Below are positions 50,130 to 63,315 of a stretch of DNA of 64,000 nt, piece by piece. How positions within the stretch are numbered: the stretch's first letter is position 1; each line of letters starts with the position of its first letter. This DNA comes from Methanosarcina sp. DH2. Lineage in GTDB: Archaea > Halobacteriota > Methanosarcinia > Methanosarcinales > Methanosarcinaceae. The position numbers were made by a program, and so were the translations under genes. The notes beneath the pieces were generated by a model. The model saw nothing but the letters and a program-made list of their open reading frames with translations. It ran no database searches and had not been told where the DNA came from. Where the stretch lies: NCBI RefSeq assembly GCF_020804225.1, contig NZ_WJBI01000001.1, forward strand, positions 174,942 through 238,941, in the 5' to 3' direction.

Positions 50130-50918
50130 TCAAACCCTTGTAATAGGCCTTGCCACGCCTTTATAATGATCAAAAAGTTCTTTTCCCCATTTAAGTGCGC
50201 TTTCATCAAAACTTACCAGGTTATGGTTGTAATAGATCCCGCTATTGCAAAAGAGGGACAGAGCCATAAATTTCTCTGTAACTATGCTTGATGCGATTTT
50301 CATATTGTTGTTATTGCATACATACAATTTGGTGTATTTTAAATTCAGGAAGTGTTCAAGCTCTTTTTTGTAGTCGTTGAGCATCCTGTCATAGACGTAC
50401 TCTGTGAATACAAGGGTAATATCCGTTCCCTTTGCGGCAAGTTCTATACAGAGAGAAGGATAGATCGGAAGGAAAAATGAAGATGAGATCATTACCTTCT
50501 CGGATTCGGAAAGGTGCTTAACAACTTCTTTTGGGTACTCGAACACATGGTTCCGGTCAGGGTTTACTTCAATATAATCTCCAAGCTTTCCTATGCTGTC
50601 CAGAAACTCAGGAGGAATTGATGTCATATCCTGATTTATCCAGTAATCGTGGTTTTTATCGAAAACATTAAAAGTTTCGAGAATTGCTTTCATCTTGGGG
50701 ACAAGAATCTCTCCGATACTGGAAAGTTTGTAAAGCCTGTTAGTTTCAATAATTAAATCCTGCTTCACCAGGATCTTTATCTGGGTCATTATCGGGCTTG
50801 AGCGTACATCGAGTGTGTTTTTAATCTCTTCGATAGTCTTGGGCCCGTCCAGAAGCAACAGAAGGAGGTTTTTCCTTTTTTCTGAAAGAAAGAGAACATC
50901 CAGTAATGATGACTCCAT
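50130..50918 (-). CDS. Msr-type regulator (HTH + DUF1724), second of a pair
   Basis: 262 residues. Winged helix at about 10-75 (KTIEEIKNTLDVRSSPIMTQ, IKILVKQDLIIETNRLYKL) and a C-terminal DUF1724 domain (ITLVFTEYVYDRM, IVTEKFMALSLF, ESALKWGKELFDHYKGVARP). Methanosarcina regulators of this architecture, the Msr proteins, control the methanol methyltransferase operons and related genes. It is a paralogue of the protein at 51294-52079, and both lie downstream of the mtaCB block on the same strand. Good ribosome binding site (GAGAGGGA). The effector is unknown; a methanol- or corrinoid-linked signal is inferred. Confidence 0.88.
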   Translation of the reverse strand: MESSLLDVLFLSEKRKNLLLLLLDGPKTIEEIKNTLDVRSSPIMTQIKILVKQDLIIETNRLYKLSSIGEILVPKMKAILETFNVFDKNHDYWINQDMTSIPPEFLDSIGKLGDYIEVNPDRNHVFEYPKEVVKHLSESEKVMISSSFFLPIYPSLCIELAAKGTDITLVFTEYVYDRMLNDYKKELEHFLNLKYTKLYVCNNNNMKIASSIVTEKFMALSLFCNSGIYYNHNLVSFDESALKWGKELFDHYKGVARPITRV

Positions 50919-51293: not shown

Positions 51294-52079
51294 TTATATC
51301 TTATTTACCAGTTTGGAAAGTCTCTTGAAATAATCAAACAATTCCTGGCCCCACCGCAGGGCAGCAGGTTCAAAACTCATAATAAATTGCTGGTCGAACT
51401 TTCCATTTCTATCAAAGAGCCCAAGGAGCATTATTTTTTCAGTCACTGTAATTTCGGATATTTTTATTCCCTCTTTTGAGATATAAAGGCTCACATTATC
51501 CATGCCCATTAGCTCTTTTATCATCTCTGAGTGCTCGTTTGAGAGATGGTCCCAGACAGACTGCGTAAAATTAAGAGAGAGTTCAGCATCTTTTCTGCCA
51601 AGCTCAACGTAAAGAGGCAGATAGGCAGGGTTGAAATAAGAAGCAAAAGTCGAAGCTATTTTTGCATTGGCCATACTGTCAATGATCTTCTGGGAAGGTT
51701 CATAAATGTGGTTCAGGTCCGGCTCTATCAGGGTGCAGTCTCCAAGCTCCGAGATTCTTTCAAGAAGATGGCGGGGGATTGAATTCAGGTCATGCCCTGT
51801 CCAGTAACAGTTGTTTTTTTCCACTACCTCAAGGGCACTGATCAGCGGCTTTACCTTTTTGATTATGAACTCTCCAAGTACCGTGAGCTTATACATCCGG
51901 TCTTCCTGGACGATGAGATCACTATCTATCAATTTCTTTATCTGGGGAAGGATTGACGTGGCAGTAACATCCAGTTCATCCCTGATTTCATCAATATTTT
52001 TTGAGCCGCTATCCAGCAGTATAAGAAGGTTTTTTCTTTTATCGGAGCGGAAAACAAGATCAATAAGTGAAGATTCCAT
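51294..52079 (-). CDS. Msr-type regulator (HTH + DUF1724), first of a pair
   Basis: 261 residues, same architecture as the gene at 50130-50918: winged helix KNIDEIRDELDVTATSILPQ with IKKLIDSDLIVQEDRMYKLT, and C-terminal DUF1724 (ELSLNFTQSVWDHL, IKISEITVTEKIMLLGLFDR, PAALRWGQELFDYFKRLSKL). The two are clearly paralogous over their full length. In M. acetivorans adjacent msrD/msrE genes stand beside a mtaCB operon and hydantoinase-like genes, as I recall; the arrangement here looks the same. Likely an activator or repressor of the methanol genes. Confidence 0.88.
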   Translation of the reverse strand: MESSLIDLVFRSDKRKNLLILLDSGSKNIDEIRDELDVTATSILPQIKKLIDSDLIVQEDRMYKLTVLGEFIIKKVKPLISALEVVEKNNCYWTGHDLNSIPRHLLERISELGDCTLIEPDLNHIYEPSQKIIDSMANAKIASTFASYFNPAYLPLYVELGRKDAELSLNFTQSVWDHLSNEHSEMIKELMGMDNVSLYISKEGIKISEITVTEKIMLLGLFDRNGKFDQQFIMSFEPAALRWGQELFDYFKRLSKLVNKI

Positions 52080-52227: not shown

Positions 52228-54156
52228 TCAGTCTATTGAAAAACCAGGAGTACAGACTCCTACAAAAATCATCTTTGTCTCCATTGGCGTCTGCTTCCAT
52301 CCCGAGGGGACGAGATACTCTATGCTGGTATCTATCTTTATTGAACTTTCCGGAAGCCCAAAGTCCTTCATCGAATCCAGGATCATTTCTTCCCCAGCTT
52401 TTTGAGAGTATTCTACTGCAGCCCTGTACTGCTCGAATTTTTTTCTTCCAGCCGGGGTAAATACAAGGAAATTCTGATCCGGGTTTTCCATCGAATAAGG
52501 CTTGATGGTTATCTCGATTCTTTTTATTCCTTTTCCTACAAGAGCTCCGACAGCATTTCCTACTCTTGCCTGCTCGGGGACAATAATTTCCGCATCAATG
52601 AGAGCCTTCAGTTCTCCATAGTAAGCTTTTACCGGCCCTCCCAGCAGAACGATGGGAATATTCACTTTGTACTGGACAGGAACTTCTTCTTCCAGCATCA
52701 TCTTTATTCCATCTTTTCCCCTGCCTTCCATTATAAAAGACATCAGGCTATAGGCCATATTTCTGGCGACCTGCTGCTTTACTTTTTTACAGAAAGCATG
52801 CACTCCCATCTGGGTAAAGCGAGAGAGTTTTCTGGCTCCTATCTGGGCAGTCTCTACATCCCATTCTGTATATTCCCCCAGCACGTGCAGGGCATCGGTG
52901 GGTGTAAAGCCTATAGCCTGGATTACCCTCTGGTTGAGCAAGGAATCAAGGACTGCAGGAGAAGGAAAACGCTTCATTTTATTTAGTATCTCGTGGATCG
53001 AAAGAGGTTCATCTCCTATAAATTCCAGCAGTTTTTTCTCACTCTCGGTGGGGTTGATGGGTGTCACCCCAGTCCTGACAAAAAACTTGGTGGGCTGAAG
53101 ATGCTCATTAAGCATGGTTCTCAAAGGTATGGGATTTTTCTCGAGTTTGTCTTTGAAGTTAGGGTATTTTACCGCAGCAAAACATAGAGGCATAACTCTT
53201 CTTGGTCCTATCCTTATGCATTTCTTGAACCATACGTGGCTATCTCCTCCGTTCGCGGAGCTTTCCATTTTTATAGCTTTTACGCGTGTCTGCCAGCCCC
53301 CAACAATTGCCCCTTTCTCGCAGAGATCAGGAACTCCGTTTTTAATTATGGAGACATCCGTGCTTGTTCCTCCAACATCAATTACGGCGCATGTATCAAG
53401 CCCTGAAAGGTGTGAAGCTCCCATAATACTTGCAGCGGGGCCTGAGAATATAGTTTCAATCGGGCGCAGTTTAGCTCCTTTTATATCTATAACCGAGCCA
53501 TCACATTTTAACATCAGAACTTTCGCATCAAGATTTCTTTCTTTCACTTCAGCCATGATAGAATGGATAAACTGGTAGGTTATGGGAATTAGCTGGGCAT
53601 TTAAGACTGCCGTAGCTGCTCTTTCGTAAGCTCCCAATTCCTGGGAAAGTTCATGCCCGCAGACTACAGGATGCCCTGTAAGTTTGAGGATTACGTCCTT
53701 TATCCTCAGCTCATGCTCCGGGTTTCTGGTACTGAAATAAGAAGAAACGGCAAATGCAGATACTTTCTTTTTAAGGCTTACTGCAAACTGTTCTACAGCA
53801 GTGAGGTCAAGAGGGTGGAGTTCGTCACCGTTGCTGTCATGTCCCCCTTTAACTGTAATACTGTAGTCGGCTGGCAGTTCCCTTGGAATGGTATAGTCCC
53901 CTACAAGGATCAGGCCAACAGGATATCCGGTTCTTTCCAGAATCGTATTTGTCGAGAGAGTTGTGGAAACCGACACGAGTTTTACTTGCTTGAGATATTC
54001 CGGGTTCAACTTATTGATTGCGTTTCGAATTCCGGTCATCAGGTTTGGATAGGTGGTAACCGCTTTGCTGGTATCAAGGATCCTGCTGTCCGAATCCCTT
54101 AAAATAACAGCGTCAGTATATGTTCCACCTGCATCAATACCCAGACTATATTGCAT
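52228..54156 (-). CDS. HyuA-type hydantoinase/oxoprolinase family ATPase 1
   Basis: 642 residues from the ATG at 54156 (MQYSLGIDAGGTYTDAVILR); a longer frame adds 33 residues with no homology. ASKHA-fold signatures are clear: GIDAGGTYTDA (phosphate 1), STTLSTNTILE, GPAASIMGASHLSG and VIDVGGTSTDVSII (phosphate 2). The tail (about 480-640) with VPVQYKVNIPIVLLGGPVKA corresponds to the adenosine region. In bacteria HyuA needs a HyuB partner to hydrolyse hydantoins, 5-oxoproline or acetone; none is encoded here. It is 156 bases after a paralogue and within the mtaCB island. An ATP-dependent role in corrinoid-protein maintenance is inferred. Confidence 0.88.
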   Translation of the reverse strand: MQYSLGIDAGGTYTDAVILRDSDSRILDTSKAVTTYPNLMTGIRNAINKLNPEYLKQVKLVSVSTTLSTNTILERTGYPVGLILVGDYTIPRELPADYSITVKGGHDSNGDELHPLDLTAVEQFAVSLKKKVSAFAVSSYFSTRNPEHELRIKDVILKLTGHPVVCGHELSQELGAYERAATAVLNAQLIPITYQFIHSIMAEVKERNLDAKVLMLKCDGSVIDIKGAKLRPIETIFSGPAASIMGASHLSGLDTCAVIDVGGTSTDVSIIKNGVPDLCEKGAIVGGWQTRVKAIKMESSANGGDSHVWFKKCIRIGPRRVMPLCFAAVKYPNFKDKLEKNPIPLRTMLNEHLQPTKFFVRTGVTPINPTESEKKLLEFIGDEPLSIHEILNKMKRFPSPAVLDSLLNQRVIQAIGFTPTDALHVLGEYTEWDVETAQIGARKLSRFTQMGVHAFCKKVKQQVARNMAYSLMSFIMEGRGKDGIKMMLEEEVPVQYKVNIPIVLLGGPVKAYYGELKALIDAEIIVPEQARVGNAVGALVGKGIKRIEITIKPYSMENPDQNFLVFTPAGRKKFEQYRAAVEYSQKAGEEMILDSMKDFGLPESSIKIDTSIEYLVPSGWKQTPMETKMIFVGVCTPGFSID

Positions 54157-54311
54157 GTCAAAACAGCCCCATTTTTTATTCCATTTTAGGCAACCTATAT
54201 CTTTTTTTAGCTGTACTAATCCCTTTTTAGCCGGATTTATAAAGTTATGTTTCAAGATATATATTTTTACTTATAATGTGCAGCAATTTCTATTTTTTAC
54301 TATCCTTTCTT

Positions 54312-56324
54312 TCAGGCTGTCATGCTATTCCTGGGAACTCCTACTCCTACATAAACAAGTTTTGTTTCGAGAGGCACATCTGTCCAGCCACTGGGTGCCA
54401 GGTGTTTCCTGCTGACATCTATCCTTATATCCTCTTTTTCGAGACCTGCACTGATCATATAATTCATAACAAGCTGTCTCCCGAGTTTTTCAGCATACTC
54501 CAGAGCTTCACTGTATACTTCAAATTTTTTCCTTTCCGATGGAGAAAACACAATGAATTCATTTTTCTTTTCCTGCTGAAGCGCACCTTCTATTACTTCG
54601 CTCTCCGGCGCTATGCAGTGCTCTTCGCCTTCGGGAGTTTCTTCCCTGGACTTGGGAACAAGCCTTGTTTTTATAAGAATCTCTACCCTTTTAATTCCTT
54701 TTCCAACAAGGGCTCCAACCGCATTACCAACATCAGCGTGTTCTGGCACTATAAACTCGGCACTAATCAACCTTCTCAGGTTTTCAACGTATGCCCCTAC
54801 AGGTCCTCCTAGAAGGACGACAGGAATTTCTACTCTGAAGCGCGTAAAGTTTTTCCCCTTAAGTACCCTGTCAATCTCGCCTCTGGGCATTCCCTCTATT
54901 AGATATGCGATAAGGTCTTCGGCAATGTTGCGCGCAACCCTGCGCTTTACTTCGGCGCTGAAAGCTTCCGGGTTTAGTTTCAGTGGCCTCCCAAGTATAT
55001 AAGCCCCGATCCTTGCAGCTTCCACATCCCATTCTGTATATTCCCCAAGGACATGCAGGGCATCGGTAGGTGTAAAACCTATAGCCTGGATTAACCTCTT
55101 CTGTATAAGTGAATCGAGTATTGAAGGCGAGGGGCGTTTTTTCAGTGCTATGAGAAGGTCTCCAAAGGAAACAGGTTCTTTTCCTATATACCTGTAGATC
55201 TCACGTTCTCCTGCTTTCAGTTCAATAGGCCTGAAACCTGTCCTGACAAAAAATTTCGTTACCTGGATGTTTTCACAGAGATAACCTTTTGCTACTCTGT
55301 TATGTTTGAGCTTTTCTCTGAATTCGGGATATATAGCAGAAGCTCTGCAGAGAGGAATGACCCGGCGGGGTCCTACGTTGATCCTGTCGCCCTTTAGCCA
55401 TACATGGCTATCTCCCCCGGTTGCCGAGGTTTCCATACGGATAGCTTTTACACGGGTTTGCCAGCCTCCGACTACCGCACCTGAACTGCTGAGTTGCGGG
55501 AGCCCGTTCTGCATCATCGCTACATCCGTACTTGTGCCTCCAACATCAATGACAGCGCATGTGTCAAGCCTGCTGAGGTGGGAGGCACCCACAAGACTTG
55601 CTGCAGGCCCTGAAAATATAGTTTCAATAGGCTTTTCCAGAGCTTCTTCGATTCCAACAACCGACCCATCGCATTTTAGCATCAACATGTTTGCGCTGAT
55701 TCCACGGCTTTCGAATTCTTTAATTATTGACTGGATGAACTTATGGGTGATAGGAATCAACTGAGCATTCAGAAAAGCAGTTATTGCCCTTTCGTAGGCT
55801 CCAAGGTCCTGAGAAAGCTCATGCCCGCAAACAACCGGGTGCTTGGTAAGTTCCTTTACAGTTTTCTTGACGGCAAGCTCATGCTCGGGATTTCGGTTGC
55901 TGAAATACGAAGAGACTGCAAAAGCAGAAACTTTATCCTGAACTTTGAGTGCGAATTCTTTTACCGAATCAAGGTCCAGGTCTTTTAATTCTTCTCCATC
56001 ACTGTTATGCCCGCCTGAGACTGCTACCCAGTAATCTGTGGGGAGTTTCTCAGGGATTACATAGTCTCCGACCATGATCAGGCCTACCGGGAACCCTGTG
56101 CTTTCCAGAATCGTATTTGTAGACAGTGTAGTGGATACGGATACGAGCTTTATATCCCCGAGATAGTCGGGATTCAGCCTGTCGATTGCATTTTTCATTC
56201 CAGGCAGGGGGTCAGGGTAGGTCGTCAGGGCTTTGCTCGACTCAACTACTACTCCATCAGAATCCCTTACGATAACGGCATCAGTATAGGTGCCCCCTGC
56301 ATCGATTCCAAGACTGAAGTGCAT
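54312..56324 (-). CDS. HyuA-type hydantoinase/oxoprolinase family ATPase 2
   Basis: 670 residues, paralogous along its whole length to the protein at 52228-54156: GIDAGGTYTDAVIVRDSDGV, STTLSTNTILESTGFPVGLI, GPAASLVGASHLSRLDTCAV and VIDVGGTSTDVAMMQN. It differs by a charged insert near residue 570 (SREETPEGEEHCIAPESEVI). The ATG at 56324 has GAGGTAAG upstream. No HyuB partner is present. The tandem pair probably arose by duplication and may form a heteromer. Confidence 0.88.
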   Translation of the reverse strand: MHFSLGIDAGGTYTDAVIVRDSDGVVVESSKALTTYPDPLPGMKNAIDRLNPDYLGDIKLVSVSTTLSTNTILESTGFPVGLIMVGDYVIPEKLPTDYWVAVSGGHNSDGEELKDLDLDSVKEFALKVQDKVSAFAVSSYFSNRNPEHELAVKKTVKELTKHPVVCGHELSQDLGAYERAITAFLNAQLIPITHKFIQSIIKEFESRGISANMLMLKCDGSVVGIEEALEKPIETIFSGPAASLVGASHLSRLDTCAVIDVGGTSTDVAMMQNGLPQLSSSGAVVGGWQTRVKAIRMETSATGGDSHVWLKGDRINVGPRRVIPLCRASAIYPEFREKLKHNRVAKGYLCENIQVTKFFVRTGFRPIELKAGEREIYRYIGKEPVSFGDLLIALKKRPSPSILDSLIQKRLIQAIGFTPTDALHVLGEYTEWDVEAARIGAYILGRPLKLNPEAFSAEVKRRVARNIAEDLIAYLIEGMPRGEIDRVLKGKNFTRFRVEIPVVLLGGPVGAYVENLRRLISAEFIVPEHADVGNAVGALVGKGIKRVEILIKTRLVPKSREETPEGEEHCIAPESEVIEGALQQEKKNEFIVFSPSERKKFEVYSEALEYAEKLGRQLVMNYMISAGLEKEDIRIDVSRKHLAPSGWTDVPLETKLVYVGVGVPRNSMTA

Positions 56325-57015: not shown

Positions 57016-57984
57016 TTATGACACTGTCTTCTGTCTTCCTTCCTCAGAAACTCTTATTTTTTTCTGAAAAGAACAGTTTCTCTCAAAGGCAGGTTCTGCT
57101 TTTATAAGGGTGTATATCCCTTGCCCATAGGCTGTTTTCAGTCTCTCTTCTACAAGGTCCGCAATCTCTACAACTTCCTGGATATTTAGGGAGTTATTTA
57201 CAGTTATACAGGCATTGATTGCAATCTCGTTTCCGATCCTCCTCGTTTTAAGCTCGTCGGAACCTATTACTCCTTCAGTTCTGTTTATTATCTCCCTTAT
57301 CTTCCGGTTATTTTCTTCATCAAGGGAAGCTTCTATGAGTTCGTTGGCAGTGCCGTAGAGGAGCCTGCCCGATGTCCCGAGGAGGTACAGGCTTAAAAGT
57401 ACTGCAATAAAAGAATCAGCTATAGCGTAATTTTTTCCGGGGAGGAATGTACATCCTATGCCCAGAGTAACAAAACAGGAAAGAAAGAAACCTCTGATAT
57501 GAGTACTTCTACTGTAAGAGTCAATTTCTGATAAAACTCCTTCAGTTTGGCTCCCGATTTTCCTGTTAATAAGAGGAACAATTTCTTTTGATATAAGGAT
57601 AAAAGCAGCTGTGAGGAGCGTAAACATTTCAGGGGTTTCTGTCTCTCTCCCCTGCACAAACATAAGTAGCTCTCCTGATGCCAGAGTAAATGATTGTACG
57701 CCAGCAAAAAGGAGCACACATGCCCCTGCTCCCATAAAGAGAGTTACAACTTTTCCATGTCCGTAATTATGGCTCCAGTCTTCGGGTTTGCTGGCAATAA
57801 AATGGTCAAGAAGCTTTACAAGTTCATTCATTAACTCGGAAAAAGAACGGACCGCATCTGCGAGAAGTGCAGTGCTGTTTCCCAGCAGTCCGGCAAATAG
57901 TTTAAAAAGAGTTATCGTAAGACTAAATAAGAGTCCTGTATACGATATGTTCCGGGTTTTATTCAAATTTTTGTCCGCTTCCAT
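57016..57984 (-). CDS. Cation diffusion facilitator family protein with altered metal site
   Basis: 322 residues, six membrane segments plus a C-terminal cytosolic domain as in CDF transporters. The start NKTRNISYTGLLFSLTITLF and LLGNSTALLADAVRSFSEL match the family, and YGHGKVVTL is the usual loop. However, the transport-site residues are changed: in segment 2 'ADA-H-S-x-x-D' reads ADAVRSFSE, and in segment 5 'A-x-H-x-x-S-D' reads SYSRSTHIRGFF. Zinc transport by the canonical H/D tetrad is therefore doubtful. It lies between the HyuA pair and the acetate-transporter-like gene in the methanol island. Confidence 0.8.
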   Translation of the reverse strand: MEADKNLNKTRNISYTGLLFSLTITLFKLFAGLLGNSTALLADAVRSFSELMNELVKLLDHFIASKPEDWSHNYGHGKVVTLFMGAGACVLLFAGVQSFTLASGELLMFVQGRETETPEMFTLLTAAFILISKEIVPLINRKIGSQTEGVLSEIDSYSRSTHIRGFFLSCFVTLGIGCTFLPGKNYAIADSFIAVLLSLYLLGTSGRLLYGTANELIEASLDEENNRKIREIINRTEGVIGSDELKTRRIGNEIAINACITVNNSLNIQEVVEIADLVEERLKTAYGQGIYTLIKAEPAFERNCSFQKKIRVSEEGRQKTVS

Positions 57985-58359: not shown

Positions 58360-58944
58360 TCAGAGTGGAGCAATTGTCTTTCCATGGACTTCATTCATAA
58401 CCATGGCAAGAGCCGTGTATAAAGATCCAAGGCCCATAATAAGTCCAACATATCCGGCCACTACAAGCAGCCCGGTATTCCCGGTTGCGTTTACAACGGC
58501 CAGCAGCATAAATAATATAAATAAAGTTACAAATACAAACTGAAGGGCTCTGACTCCGATTTTCATTGTAATGATTAACATAACAAAGGTGTACACACCC
58601 CAGGTGAAGAGATATGCGGCCATAGCGATTCCAGAAGAGGCTTCAGCCCAGCCCATTGCAGGCATTACGATCAGTCCGGCCAGTGAGAACCAGAAAAGGC
58701 CGAATGCTGAGAATGCAGTTCCTGCAAAAACATCTCCTTTCTTCCAGCACATGATTCCTGCAAACACCTGGGCAAATCCTCCCAGGAATATTGCCATGGA
58801 GACAATCATTGACTCCACAGGGTATACCCCTATGTAGCTCAGACTCAACAGAACTGCAGCGAGACCCAGGCCGGTAAAGCCAAGAGGGGCAGCATTTGCA
58901 GTTTTGTCGACTATTATGGTAGAAGTTCCTACGTTTTCGCTCAT
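58360..58944 (-). CDS. GPR1/FUN34/YaaH (SatP/AceP) family transporter
   Basis: 194 residues, six membrane segments. The family opening APLGFTGLGLAAVLLSLSYI (normally NPAPLGL..F) is present, then GGFAQVFAGIMCWKKGDVFA and GTAFSAFGLFWFSLA. Relatives transport acetate, succinate or ammonium; one Methanosarcina member (AceP) is linked to acetate uptake. Here it follows mtaB after 52 bases and is probably co-transcribed, which points to a role during methanol growth, for example moving a small uncharged or weak-acid molecule. The substrate is not determined by sequence. Confidence 0.88.
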   Translation of the reverse strand: MSENVGTSTIIVDKTANAAPLGFTGLGLAAVLLSLSYIGVYPVESMIVSMAIFLGGFAQVFAGIMCWKKGDVFAGTAFSAFGLFWFSLAGLIVMPAMGWAEASSGIAMAAYLFTWGVYTFVMLIITMKIGVRALQFVFVTLFILFMLLAVVNATGNTGLLVVAGYVGLIMGLGSLYTALAMVMNEVHGKTIAPL

Positions 58945-58996: not shown

Positions 58997-60382
58997 TTAG
59001 AGCCCGTAGTTTTCAGGTCTGAAAACTGCAACTTCCTGTTTGAATTTGGTCAGGTTTTCGCTCATGAACTTGTCAGCATCATCGGTAAGGGCTACAAGGT
59101 CTGCTTTAACCTTTGCAAGAGCATTGGTTTCGAACCTTGTGAGTTTGAGCTTGCCGGAGTTGATGCCTGTTTCTACAATGTTACAGCACTCAATTGCAGC
59201 ATTCTTGGAACGGAGGTAGTTGTTGTTTCCGTCCTTTGCAATTGCCTGTCCTACCTTGTAGGCGTTGTCATAGGCGAGGACATATCCCTGTGGGTCTCTG
59301 TATTTGTCAGAGAGTGCGAGGATGTCCCTGAGGTCCTTTCCTTTTCCGAGTTTCAGAGAGGTGTTCATCATTGCACAGTCGTATGCAAGAGTCTCGGACC
59401 AGCACTGAACAGTGGTACCACCGAATTCACCGTGGTATTCGACGGATTCGTTGGACCAGAGGTCACAGCACTGCATGGTCAGGTTACCCATAAGGTCAGA
59501 GTGGGCACAGGTTGAGGTCTTACCTTCCTGAGCAATTGGGACACCAGAGATGGATTTTATGATGGTGTTTTCGTATCCACAGTCCTTTCCTGGGCCAGTT
59601 GCGCCTGATTCGTATGCACAGAGGGACCTTGCTGCAGAGATTGCCCTTGCAACGATTGCGGTTGTGTGGGCAAGGTTCTTGTCAAGCAGGCCGCCTGCGA
59701 TGAACATTGCAGTGTTTGCCTGGGCACAGTCTGTGTCACCGGCTGCAACTACACCGTTCTTCTTTGCAATGTCTGCAATATCGGACCAGATCATTTCCAT
59801 GTCCATACTGCCGAGCACACCGATACCGAAGAGGATACCTGCAGTGTCGTTCCTGAGGATGGAGTAGTCGAATACTTCCTTACCACCCATGCTCTCTACG
59901 GAAAGCAGGTCAGCACCGTTCTGGGCACACTGTTCGAATGCTTCCATAAAGGTGGTGTACTTGTCTCCTCTGAGCTGGAGGTAGTCACGGTCTTCACGGA
60001 TGTCACCGATTGTGTGGCGGAGTGCGCACTTTATGCCGTATTCATCGTGGTATTCTTCCATGATGGTCTTCTGGGCGTGTGCAACAGCGCCTCCCCATTC
60101 AGGGTTATTGGACATCTGTTCAACGTGTTCAGTTTCGAGGACTATGGAAGGTGCACCGATCTGGACCATTCTTGCCATTGCGTCGGTAGTAATCCTTTCG
60201 TATTCCTTAACGAGTTTGTCTTTAGATTTGCCTGCCTGAGGTCTCGGGGCGTAGTTCAGTTCAGGGGTTGTGAAACCAGCACCAATCTCAAGGCCAAGCC
60301 CTGCCTTTACTGGGAATTTTGCGTTCCCGAAAAGCATGTCATCTGCTTTAGCGTAAGCCATTGAAGTGTATTTTTTTACCAT
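58997..60382 (-). CDS. mtaB: Methanol:corrinoid methyltransferase MtaB
   Basis: 461 residues, family length. MtaB activates methanol on zinc and transfers the methyl group to the Co(I) corrinoid of MtaC. The zinc ligands known from M. barkeri (Glu164, Cys220, Cys269) correspond to Glu163 (SVESMGGKE), Cys219 (GDTDCAQAN) and Cys268 (GPGKDCGYE) here. The ATG has GGAGGG nearby. It starts 12 bases after mtaC, forming the classic mtaCB operon. Codon use looks highly optimised, as for an abundant catabolic enzyme. Confidence 0.98.
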   Translation of the reverse strand: MVKKYTSMAYAKADDMLFGNAKFPVKAGLGLEIGAGFTTPELNYAPRPQAGKSKDKLVKEYERITTDAMARMVQIGAPSIVLETEHVEQMSNNPEWGGAVAHAQKTIMEEYHDEYGIKCALRHTIGDIREDRDYLQLRGDKYTTFMEAFEQCAQNGADLLSVESMGGKEVFDYSILRNDTAGILFGIGVLGSMDMEMIWSDIADIAKKNGVVAAGDTDCAQANTAMFIAGGLLDKNLAHTTAIVARAISAARSLCAYESGATGPGKDCGYENTIIKSISGVPIAQEGKTSTCAHSDLMGNLTMQCCDLWSNESVEYHGEFGGTTVQCWSETLAYDCAMMNTSLKLGKGKDLRDILALSDKYRDPQGYVLAYDNAYKVGQAIAKDGNNNYLRSKNAAIECCNIVETGINSGKLKLTRFETNALAKVKADLVALTDDADKFMSENLTKFKQEVAVFRPENYGL

Positions 60383-60394
60383 TTTGCTCCCTCC

Positions 60395-61171
60395 TTAGTG
60401 CTTGTGGAATTCTGCTCTTAACTTCTCAATGTCGTTACCGCTGGCAATGATTGCATCAGCAATCTTCACAGCGTCTGAAGCTTCTTCACCATAAACTCCA
60501 AGGTCATACTGAGCAACGAAGTCCTGGTTCACAGCACCGCCACCACATGCAAAGGGCAGTTTTAATCCCTTTTCAAGGAGCTTGTCATTGATTTCCTTGA
60601 ATGCATACATAGTGGTTGTCATGAGAGCAGTACCTGTAAGCAGGATTGGCTTCTCTTTTACAACAGCTTCAATGACTTCGTCAACAGGGACATCTCTGCC
60701 CAGGTCAGTTACGTCATAGCCGGCTGCTCTCAGGAGGGCAGCAACAATGTTCTTTCCGATGTCGTGAACGTCTCCTTCTGCAACGTGGCAGACAACAGTT
60801 CCCTTTGGTTCAGGTACTTCTGTGGTCTGGGACTTGCAGTATTCAATACCATTCAGCATGGCATCGGCAGACATCATAACGTTGGGGAGGAAAATGATAC
60901 CGTCATCGTAGAGCTTGGATACAACACCCATGCCTACCATCAGTGCATCATTGATAAGGTCGATTGGCTTCTTGCCTGCAGCAATTGCGGCTTTGAGTCC
61001 GTCAACCACGTCGTCTTCTTCTCCCTCATAGATTGACTTTGCAATCGGGTAGATGAGTTCGTCCTTCGGGTAAAGCTCTTCTGCTGCTTCGTCAGGGGTC
61101 ATTTCCTTTTCGAGGGCGACGTTGTAGCGTACTAATATGCCATCGATGTCTTCCAGTTTCAAATCCAACAT
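60395..61171 (-). CDS. mtaC: Methanol corrinoid protein MtaC
   Basis: 258 residues. N-terminal helical cap (about 1-125) and C-terminal Rossmann-like B12 domain with EGDVHDIGKNI, in which His136 is the lower cobalt ligand, plus TGTALMTTTM and ACGGGAVNQD for the nucleotide tail. It accepts the methyl group from MtaB and passes it to MtaA for coenzyme M methylation. Good ribosome binding site (GGAGG) before the ATG. The transcript probably has a long leader. Confidence 0.98.
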   Translation of the reverse strand: MLDLKLEDIDGILVRYNVALEKEMTPDEAAEELYPKDELIYPIAKSIYEGEEDDVVDGLKAAIAAGKKPIDLINDALMVGMGVVSKLYDDGIIFLPNVMMSADAMLNGIEYCKSQTTEVPEPKGTVVCHVAEGDVHDIGKNIVAALLRAAGYDVTDLGRDVPVDEVIEAVVKEKPILLTGTALMTTTMYAFKEINDKLLEKGLKLPFACGGGAVNQDFVAQYDLGVYGEEASDAVKIADAIIASGNDIEKLRAEFHKH

Positions 61172-62247: not shown

Positions 62248-63315
62248 TCAACAGTTTCTCTGCTTAAAGGGATTTATTTTTGCATGACTGTATCCGTGAC
62301 CGTTTTTTCCCACATTTATATATGAAAGCTGCCTATCATTCAGCTGTCCACTTACCGTTGTATCCACAGTTTCGATAAGTTCTTCCCTGGATACGGATGT
62401 TACCGCAGAGAGTACCTTTACCCTTGATCTGTAATTGCCTTCTTTTTTAAGGATTTCAATCTCGGGTTTGTCATGTGCTGAAGTCACACTTCCCTTTACA
62501 AAGTTTTCTTTGTGTGCAAAGGAAAGTTTGATGTGCCCTATAAATTCAGGGTTCAGCTGTGTTACTCTATTTCTTATGCCGTCCAGGATCTGCCCGGAAA
62601 CAGAGACAACCGTTTCAAGAGATATGTCATGTGAAGTAATTTCGAACTCGGTTGAGTAAGCTGAAACTCCGGACATCTCAACTGAGTTTCTCGCTTCGTG
62701 AATTGTTTTACTCTGGCTGTCTCTTCCTATCAGACAGAATAGTTTGTCCAGGTCTTCTCCTCCCTGCCTGGCTGAGAAATGAACTATCCTTGCTTTCGGG
62801 TTCAATTTGCGTAGAAGCAGGCACGTTTCCAGAAGTTTTTCAGGTCCTATGAGATCGACTTTGTTGATGCCCAGAACCTCGGCATCTTCTATCTGATTTC
62901 TAACAAAATTCTGCAGATCTCCCGCATCAGGGCTCAGGCGGCCGGGATCCACGAGGCTTACTATTGGAGCAAAGTTGATCTCTGGAATATGCATGCTCTG
63001 TATATTGCTTTTGATCTGCCTTGGAAAGGCTATCCCTGTAGGCTCTATTATAATAGTATCCGGACGGTAAGAAGTTATAAGGCTTTTAAGGGTGTACTCC
63101 ATACTGATCCTGAGAGTGCAGCAAACGCACCCGCTTGTAATTTCTCTGGTTTCCACTCCCCCTTTCGAGATGGTGTCCCCGTCTATCCCTATCTCTCCTA
63201 TTTCGTTGACGATAATTGCTGTTCTCTGCCCCTGTGCTCCAAGATATTCGACAAGCTTTCTTATTGTTGTCGTTTTTCCGCTTCCAAGGAATCCTCCGAT
63301 TATCATGCACTTCAT
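62248..63315 (-). CDS. CobW-like G3E family GTPase
   Basis: 355 residues. G1 GGFLGSGKTTT (7-17), the metal-binding GCVCCTL with Cys63, Cys65 and Cys66, IIEPTGIAFP, and the base-specificity GINKVDLIG. The C-terminal half (about 200-355) is less conserved and ends in NVGKNGHGYSHAKIN, with His residues. G3E GTPases insert or chaperone metals and cobalamin (CobW, HypB, UreG, MeaB). Its place directly upstream of mtaC suggests corrinoid or zinc delivery to MtaC/MtaB. It has its own 620-base upstream region with two palindromes. Confidence 0.88.
   Translation of the reverse strand: MKCMIIGGFLGSGKTTTIRKLVEYLGAQGQRTAIIVNEIGEIGIDGDTISKGGVETREITSGCVCCTLRISMEYTLKSLITSYRPDTIIIEPTGIAFPRQIKSNIQSMHIPEINFAPIVSLVDPGRLSPDAGDLQNFVRNQIEDAEVLGINKVDLIGPEKLLETCLLLRKLNPKARIVHFSARQGGEDLDKLFCLIGRDSQSKTIHEARNSVEMSGVSAYSTEFEITSHDISLETVVSVSGQILDGIRNRVTQLNPEFIGHIKLSFAHKENFVKGSVTSAHDKPEIEILKKEGNYRSRVKVLSAVTSVSREELIETVDTTVSGQLNDRQLSYINVGKNGHGYSHAKINPFKQRNC

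Follow-up and report, generated by a model that had tools for sequence, protein, structure and literature searches.

Genes of the HyuA type have previously been drawn or mentioned near mtaCB2 and in betaine clusters (PMC11619418, PMC9768040). In Methanosarcina acetivorans the "predicted hydantoinases MA4395 and MA4396" sit between the mtaCB2 cluster and msrDE (PMC11619418), and in Ca. Formimonas warabiya a HydA, Ga0180325_114738, belongs to the glycine betaine cluster; it was described there as being of the N-methylhydantoinase A/oxoprolinase type, with unknown function, and as abundant on glycine betaine (PMC9768040). The activase of the methanol pathway, which takes Co(II) to Co(I), has been named RamM (PMC6855144, PMC2770081). 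We analysed a 64,000-nucleotide stretch of Methanosarcina sp. DH2 (contig NZ_WJBI01000001.1, positions 174,942 to 238,941; hereafter the window), in which two HyuA-type genes, HyuA1 and HyuA2, lie in tandem at a methanol methyltransferase locus. The two proteins belong to a family that lacks HyuB and is marked by an invariant cysteine, Cys166, and a winged-helix insertion. Our leading explanation, with a rough probability of 0.45, is that they would act as a dedicated ATP-driven accessory factor of corrinoid methyltransferase systems, here of the mtaCB2-type methanol system.

Both open reading frames (ORFs) are intact and match the HyuA domains of Pfam (Hydant_A_N with E-values of about 1e-32 and 1e-35, Hydantoinase_A with E about 1e-30), confirming the tandem of HyuA-type paralogues named in a preliminary description of this DNA. 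The ASKHA fold proposed there was borne out as well, the phosphate residues D8, T12, D15, D260, T264 and D267 of motifs 1 and 2 being invariant among 49 family members. A GAGGT ribosome-binding site precedes HyuA1. HyuA2 most likely starts at the ATG at 54156 (642 residues), because the alignment and the beginning MQYSLGID favor it; the upstream TTG at 54255, taken as the start before, is probably too early. That the pair stands without HyuB also held when we looked genome-wide: the whole genome (4.6 Mb, 37 contigs) has a single HyuB (PF02538), which lies on another contig and forms the C-terminal half of a 1283-residue protein of the 5-oxoprolinase type, where it is fused to its own HyuA. Pfam reported no match to Hydant_A_C (PF19278) or RACo_C_ter (PF14574) in HyuA1 or HyuA2; the OplAH of the same genome has the former domain, and the whole-genome matches to the latter are other genes. 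No cysteine motif for an Fe-S cluster was found in either sequence, whereas RamA carries two [4Fe-4S] motifs. Matches to Pfam MutL were weak (28.1 and 29.9 bits, cut-off 27) and covered short stretches only, and the NCBIfam equivalog scores of the pair were far under cut-off.

A search of a genome collection reported full-length relatives with 33-60% identity in Methanosarcinaceae, Methanomassiliicoccales, Desulfosporosinus, Ca. Formimonas, Chloroflexi, Rhizobium and Granulosicoccaceae. Cys166, which falls in a conserved C-x-H-E region, is present in all 49 members and is leucine in the OplA and the 570-residue HyuA of the same genome. An Fe-S role of the conserved cysteines was ruled out, as Cys166 alone is invariant and C218 and C256 vary. 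Compared with the 570-residue HyuA, roughly 85 residues are added between the GPRRV and FTPTDALHVLG segments. In the AlphaFold2 (AF2) model of HyuA1 (predicted local distance difference test, pLDDT, 88.4; predicted template modeling score, pTM, 0.85) the insertion forms helices at 371-379, 387-394 and 400-408 and a strand at 412-416. Its profile gave weak matches only against the PDB, the leading ones and most of the others being MarR/Lrp winged helices (best E 0.002); the insertion of HyuA2 scored barely above the Pfam cut-off of the DprA winged helix, and 11 of 26 members matched at E ≤0.1. The recognition-helix region is neither conserved nor consistently basic in the family alignment. A model of the winged-helix fragment by itself was poor (pLDDT 49) and was not used, and a viral structure library provided no useful match. 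By Foldseek, the folds closest to the HyuA1 model were HyuA subunits, N-methylhydantoinase, acetone and acetophenone carboxylases and caprolactamase (9h03, 5svc, 5m45, 5l9w, 6yra), with RACo and the activators of 2-hydroxyacyl-CoA dehydratases ranking far behind. Both members of the pair carry the cysteine and the insertion, and their genome encodes RACE.

The association of the family with corrinoid METHYLTRANSFERASES was evident in the fetched loci, where neighbor identities were checked with Pfam: a gene of a corrinoid methyltransferase system lies within 5 kb of 43 of 94 members, and of 25 of the 56 members that have at least 5 kb on both sides. The neighbors, whether archaeal or bacterial, are genes of the mta, mtt, mtb, mts and mtg types; their substrates are methanol, methylamines, methyl sulfides and glycine betaine, and a corrinoid methyltransferase is common to all. 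A family member lies beside mttC-mttB-mtbA (L075, L082), in the order mts-HyuA-chaperonin-ramA (L093, and likewise L095 with mtaA ahead of ramA), in methylamine clusters of Methanimicrococcus (L096, L097), beside an Mts-like methyltransferase and a Cys-rich 104-residue ORF in Methanomassiliicoccales (L112, L114, L120), in the order mttB-corrinoid-mttB-HyuA in Desulfosporosinus (L129), and as HyuA-mttB or pterin methyltransferase-HyuA in Chloroflexi (L136, L117, L118). In Ca. Formimonas the order is mtgC-mtgB-mtgC-mtgB-HyuA-mtgA-mtgB, and the 668-residue member inside it is 37% identical to HyuA1, with cysteine and winged helix kept. By size and position this member matches Ga0180325_114738, which is listed as "Unknown" and shifts with the methyltransferases, with far more of it on glycine betaine (LFC -7.20; PMC9768040).

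The family also co-occurs with RACE. RACo_C_ter was found in 103 of 104 HyuA-positive genomes of Methanosarcinales, a count that leaves out three weak HyuA matches, and in all 26 distant HyuA-positive genomes, which ruled out the family as a substitute for RACE. All 21 HyuA-positive Chloroflexota had it, against a background of 108 of 301 (hypergeometric p 1e-10, ignoring kinship), as did 30 of 31 in the Rhizobium order, against 81 of 199 (p 9e-13, likewise ignoring kinship); the sole exception there is a fragmented genome. MttB-family proteins occur in 30 of these 31 Rhizobium-order genomes, with a median of at least about 7 where the family is present and of 2 in MttB-positive genomes without it. 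Nine Methanosarcinales genomes without MtaB keep the family, which is therefore linked to corrinoid methyltransferases as a whole. A role confined to MtaC was ruled out by these nine genomes together with G166, which has MtaB and no close member, and is also contradicted by the many other methyltransferases among the neighbors. The connection of the pair with corrinoid methyltransferases made in the preliminary description is real and wider than mtaC, as seen from RACE and from the mta, mtt, mtb, mts and mtg neighbors.

At the locus itself the gene order is mtaC-mtaB-YaaH-CDF-HyuA1-HyuA2-msrD-msrE (Table 1), the layout of mtaCB2-MA4395/MA4396-msrDE in M. acetivorans, and by gene order HyuA1 is the ortholog of one of MA4395 and MA4396. 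The pair had been placed next to mtaCB; it does share the locus, two genes downstream, with a YaaH-type transporter gene and a cation-efflux gene intervening. We compared 186 genomes of the order: in 27 besides this one, HyuA1 and mtaB share a contig, 0.3-5.3 kb apart (median 2.5 kb), and in at least 14 of the 27 HyuA1 is followed by HyuA2; the tandem at the locus is therefore not chance. The genome holds seven copies of the family, and one of the five outside the tandem adjoins a fused Mts methyltransferase near ramA (L019).

Table 1. Features of the HyuA locus and of related loci (window coordinates unless a locus is named)
Feature	Coordinates	Strand	Basis or remark
HyuA1, HyuA-type ASKHA ATPase without HyuB	54312..56324	minus	670 aa, 73.7 kDa; PF05378/PF01968, AF2 model, synteny
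HyuA2, tandem paralogue of HyuA1	52228..54156	minus	642 aa, 70.7 kDa; 59% identical to HyuA1
ASKHA phosphate-1 motif DAGGTYTD, HyuA1	56280..56303	minus	invariant D8, T12, D15
ASKHA phosphate-2 motif DVGGTSTD, HyuA1	55524..55547	minus	invariant D260, T264, D267
Cys166 codon, HyuA1	55827..55829	minus	invariant in 49/49 members; Leu in compared canonical HyuA proteins
Winged-helix insertion, HyuA1 residues 366-416	55077..55229	minus	AF2 model, family alignment, insertion profile
Winged-helix insertion, HyuA2	52903..53055	minus	Pfam DprA_WH 23.0 bits, cut-off 22.9
mtaB, methanol:corrinoid methyltransferase	58997..60382	minus	NCBIfam NF040651 above cut-off
mtaC, methanol corrinoid protein	60395..61171	minus	NCBIfam NF040655 above cut-off
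GPR1/FUN34/YaaH transporter, between mtaB and HyuA1	58360..58944	minus	PF01184
Cation diffusion facilitator (CDF), between transporter and HyuA1	57016..57984	minus	PF01545, PF16916
Msr-type regulator, msrD position	51294..52079	minus	PF08350 FilR1_middle; gene order as in PMC11619418
Msr-type regulator, msrE position	50130..50918	minus	PF08350
CobW/COG0523 G3E GTPase, upstream of mtaC	62248..63315	minus	PF02492
Cys-rich ORF, Methanomassiliicoccales	L112 9677-9994; L114 5654-5968; L116 9658-9990; L120 1077-1391

The genome encodes four RACo_C_ter proteins. RamM is an iron-sulfur protein of about 60 kDa. One of the four is of the ramM type, and its gene is found about 16 kb upstream of the pair, to the right of HyuA1 and outside the window (L022, 8045-9995); the gene is split only by an assembly N run, and both halves match RACo_C_ter. 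It shares a supercluster with the pair, together with CobW, msrC-type, Mts-type and MtaA-type genes. At least 16 other genomes likewise place a RACE gene no more than 20 kb from HyuA1. The family is distinct from the established B12-reactivating enzyme, whose gene is another one in this cluster. Recombinant RamM (MV10335) of Methanolobus vulcani B1d, given ATP and Ti(III) citrate, converted a corrinoid protein, MtgC, from Co(II) to Co(I) with RamM alone and no HyuA (PMC6855144). A locus from this strain (L077) reads mtaA-HyuA-mtaB-mtaC-cobW-ram; we infer from gene order that these are the MV-tagged genes, and the HyuA-free in vitro system would therefore have drawn two proteins from that HyuA's own cluster.

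Several other genes accompany the family. Besides the CobW/COG0523 GTPase of the window, a second one lies in the methyltransferase supercluster (L022, 6384-7550); such genes have been published as co-localized with corrinoid methyltransferases (PMC2770081). The Cys-rich ORF of Methanomassiliicoccales (104-110 residues, CxxC repeats, no Pfam match) directly precedes HyuA and is a possible zinc-ribbon or Fe-S partner. Small DUF6951 proteins adjoin ramA or HyuA in methanogens (L019 8177-8542, L116 12003-12356, L112 12079-12456). Some mts/HyuA/ramA operons contain or adjoin a divergent thermosome (chaperonin) gene (L088 11953-13578, L093 11932-13542, L095 2883-4490, L022 1-1587), which suggests a folding or maturation module. 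A 451-residue MtmB-family protein without an in-frame stop, possibly a non-pyrrolysine form, has a HyuA copy and a corrinoid protein gene as neighbors (L065, 12195-13550). In a Chloroflexota branch of the family (L158-L175), found only in RACE genomes, the conserved neighbors are serS, cysteine synthase, an ABC exporter and guaB rather than methyltransferases.

ASKHA reactivases and chaperones of B12 enzymes, such as the diol dehydratase reactivase and GlmL, are precedents for a factor of the kind we favor. Since a corrinoid protein and an activase are common to the methanol, methylamine, methyl-sulfide and betaine loci, the probable target of HyuA is the corrinoid protein or its complex. RamM was enough for reduction in vitro (PMC6855144), and therefore HyuA probably does something else; because RACE carries out the reduction and accompanies HyuA, another ATP-dependent job is the most plausible one for HyuA. 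By analogy, that job would most plausibly be loading, exchange or assembly. What the analysis establishes is the family, its architecture, its genomic association and its co-occurrence with RACE, together with one published co-induction; ATP hydrolysis, the corrinoid-protein target and the maturation or repair role are our inferences. The HyuA fold would work alongside the Ram/RACE proteins: its ASKHA ATP cycle may open or close a clamp that encloses the corrinoid protein or the MtxB-MtxC complex, and this movement would permit corrinoid loading, exchange of a damaged cofactor or assembly of the complex, while the electron transfer of reductive activation would stay with the Ram/RACE protein of the same cluster. 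More tentatively, the whole family, a HyuA fold that would have lost HyuB and acquired a winged helix, may represent a new kind of ATP-driven factor for the maturation or repair of corrinoid methyltransferases, Ram/RACE-partnered, which loads or exchanges corrinoid or assembles the complex in methanogens, acetogens and aerobic bacteria.

Several observations weigh against an accessory factor of corrinoid methyltransferases. Many members lie away from methyltransferases, including four of the seven copies here, which stand in unrelated contexts (L018, L020 and a pair in L021), those of Rhizobium and, in Chloroflexota, nearly the whole branch at 37-40% identity, which is found near serS, guaB and cysteine synthase; this genuinely limits the evidence from neighborhoods. 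The contiguous HdrED-responsive cluster of M. acetivorans stopped at MA4394, just short of the HyuA genes (PMC11619418), and four proteins, HyuA not included, were enough for glycine betaine:coenzyme M transfer (PMC6855144). The co-occurrence profiles ignore shared ancestry, and RACE follows corrinoid metabolism generally.

Among the competing explanations, small-molecule chemistry with Cys166 ranks ahead of winged-helix regulation, which in turn ranks ahead of the activator role proposed originally. An enzyme acting by phosphorylation or ligation on some metabolite shared across corrinoid methylotrophy, for example in modifying a corrinoid side chain or a cofactor, would fit the closest folds, which are catalytic HyuA subunits (acetone and acetophenone carboxylase, caprolactamase, N-methylhydantoinase); MfnF and the HyuA subunits of carboxylases and caprolactamase act in this way, and the invariant cysteine of the C-x-H-E region could be catalytic. 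We nevertheless consider it unlikely, as seven paralogues, several of them tied to particular methyltransferase operons, suit protein partners better and neither HyuB nor another catalytic partner is conserved alongside. A regulator or sensor, whose winged helix would bind DNA and whose ASKHA domain would sense a nucleotide or ligand as in ROK repressors, agrees with the MarR/Lrp matches of the insertion profile and with the adjoining msrD/msrE-type genes. The recognition-helix region, however, varies and is not consistently basic across the family, dedicated Msr regulators are already at the locus, and the abundant, co-induced member of strain DCMF better suits an enzyme or factor, all of which makes regulation improbable.

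The preliminary description had cast the pair as an ATP-dependent reductive activator (methyltransferase activation protein, MAP) that takes MtaC from Co(II) to Co(I), and regarded the activation protein as lacking an obvious gene; the literature assigns methanol-pathway activation to RamM (PMC6855144, PMC2770081). RACo does have the same ASKHA fold (Foldseek rank 9, E 1e-6), and HyuA genes are genomically close to those of corrinoid proteins. Against this, RamM does the job in vitro when given ATP and Ti(III) citrate, with HyuA absent (PMC6855144), a ramM-type gene is already in the same cluster, and the family outlives the loss of MtaB in nine genomes. The pair has no iron-sulfur motif and measures 73.7 and 70.7 kDa rather than about 60 kDa, compared with 58.8 kDa and two [4Fe-4S] motifs in RamA, and RACE is already present in HyuA genomes, so that HyuA is no replacement for it; we now regard the activator role as quite improbable. 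Least probable by far is that the pair forms the HyuA half of a hydantoinase or oxoprolinase with HyuB encoded elsewhere, as its HyuA homology might suggest: the one HyuB of the genome is fused to a full HyuA of its own, Hydant_A_C gave no match, and the insertion is absent from this genome's canonical 570-residue HyuA. With no free HyuB in the genome, a distant HyuB partner was ruled out.

In methylotrophic methanogenesis and acetogenesis, the way in which corrinoid proteins receive, retain and repair their B12 is a gap in knowledge. When produced in E. coli, M. acetivorans MtaB was well folded yet inactive (PMC12450230), and accessory factors may therefore be missing. A family nearly restricted to genomes with corrinoid activases is a concrete candidate for such a factor. 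It accompanies B12-dependent methyl-transfer systems in archaea and bacteria, and its members are probably helpers of those systems; the database label "hydantoinase" is probably wrong for them and is corrected by this analysis. Among open-licence PMC papers, we found none in which the family, its insertion or its almost exclusive occurrence in RACE genomes is defined, and no functional study of it.

Compared with known systems, the pair shares its fold and ASKHA motifs with the HyuA subunits of N-methylhydantoinase, OplA 5-oxoprolinase, caprolactamase (alpha) and acetone/acetophenone carboxylase, and differs from them in having neither HyuB nor a Hydant_A_C match, in the invariant Cys166 and in the winged helix before FTPTDALHVLG. 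RamA, RamM, RACE and RACo are likewise ASKHA ATPases linked to corrinoid methyltransferases and frequently of the same cluster, whereas the pair is larger, has no Fe-S motifs or RACo_C_ter match and is additional to RACE. MfnF is also a HyuB-less HyuA-fold protein of methanogens, but has 329 residues against 670 and 642, and a separate MfnF-like gene of this genome adjoins an mfnE-like kinase gene (C1, L025). GlmL/MutL and the diol-dehydratase reactivase are ASKHA factors for B12 enzymes as well, and the pair gives a weak Pfam MutL match; they serve adenosyl-B12 mutases and dehydratases, and have no specific relation in sequence to the pair apart from the common fold. The HydA of Ca. Formimonas warabiya (668 residues) is of the same family as HyuA1, and lies beside MttB-type (mtg) methyltransferases, whereas HyuA1 lies beside those of the MtaB type.

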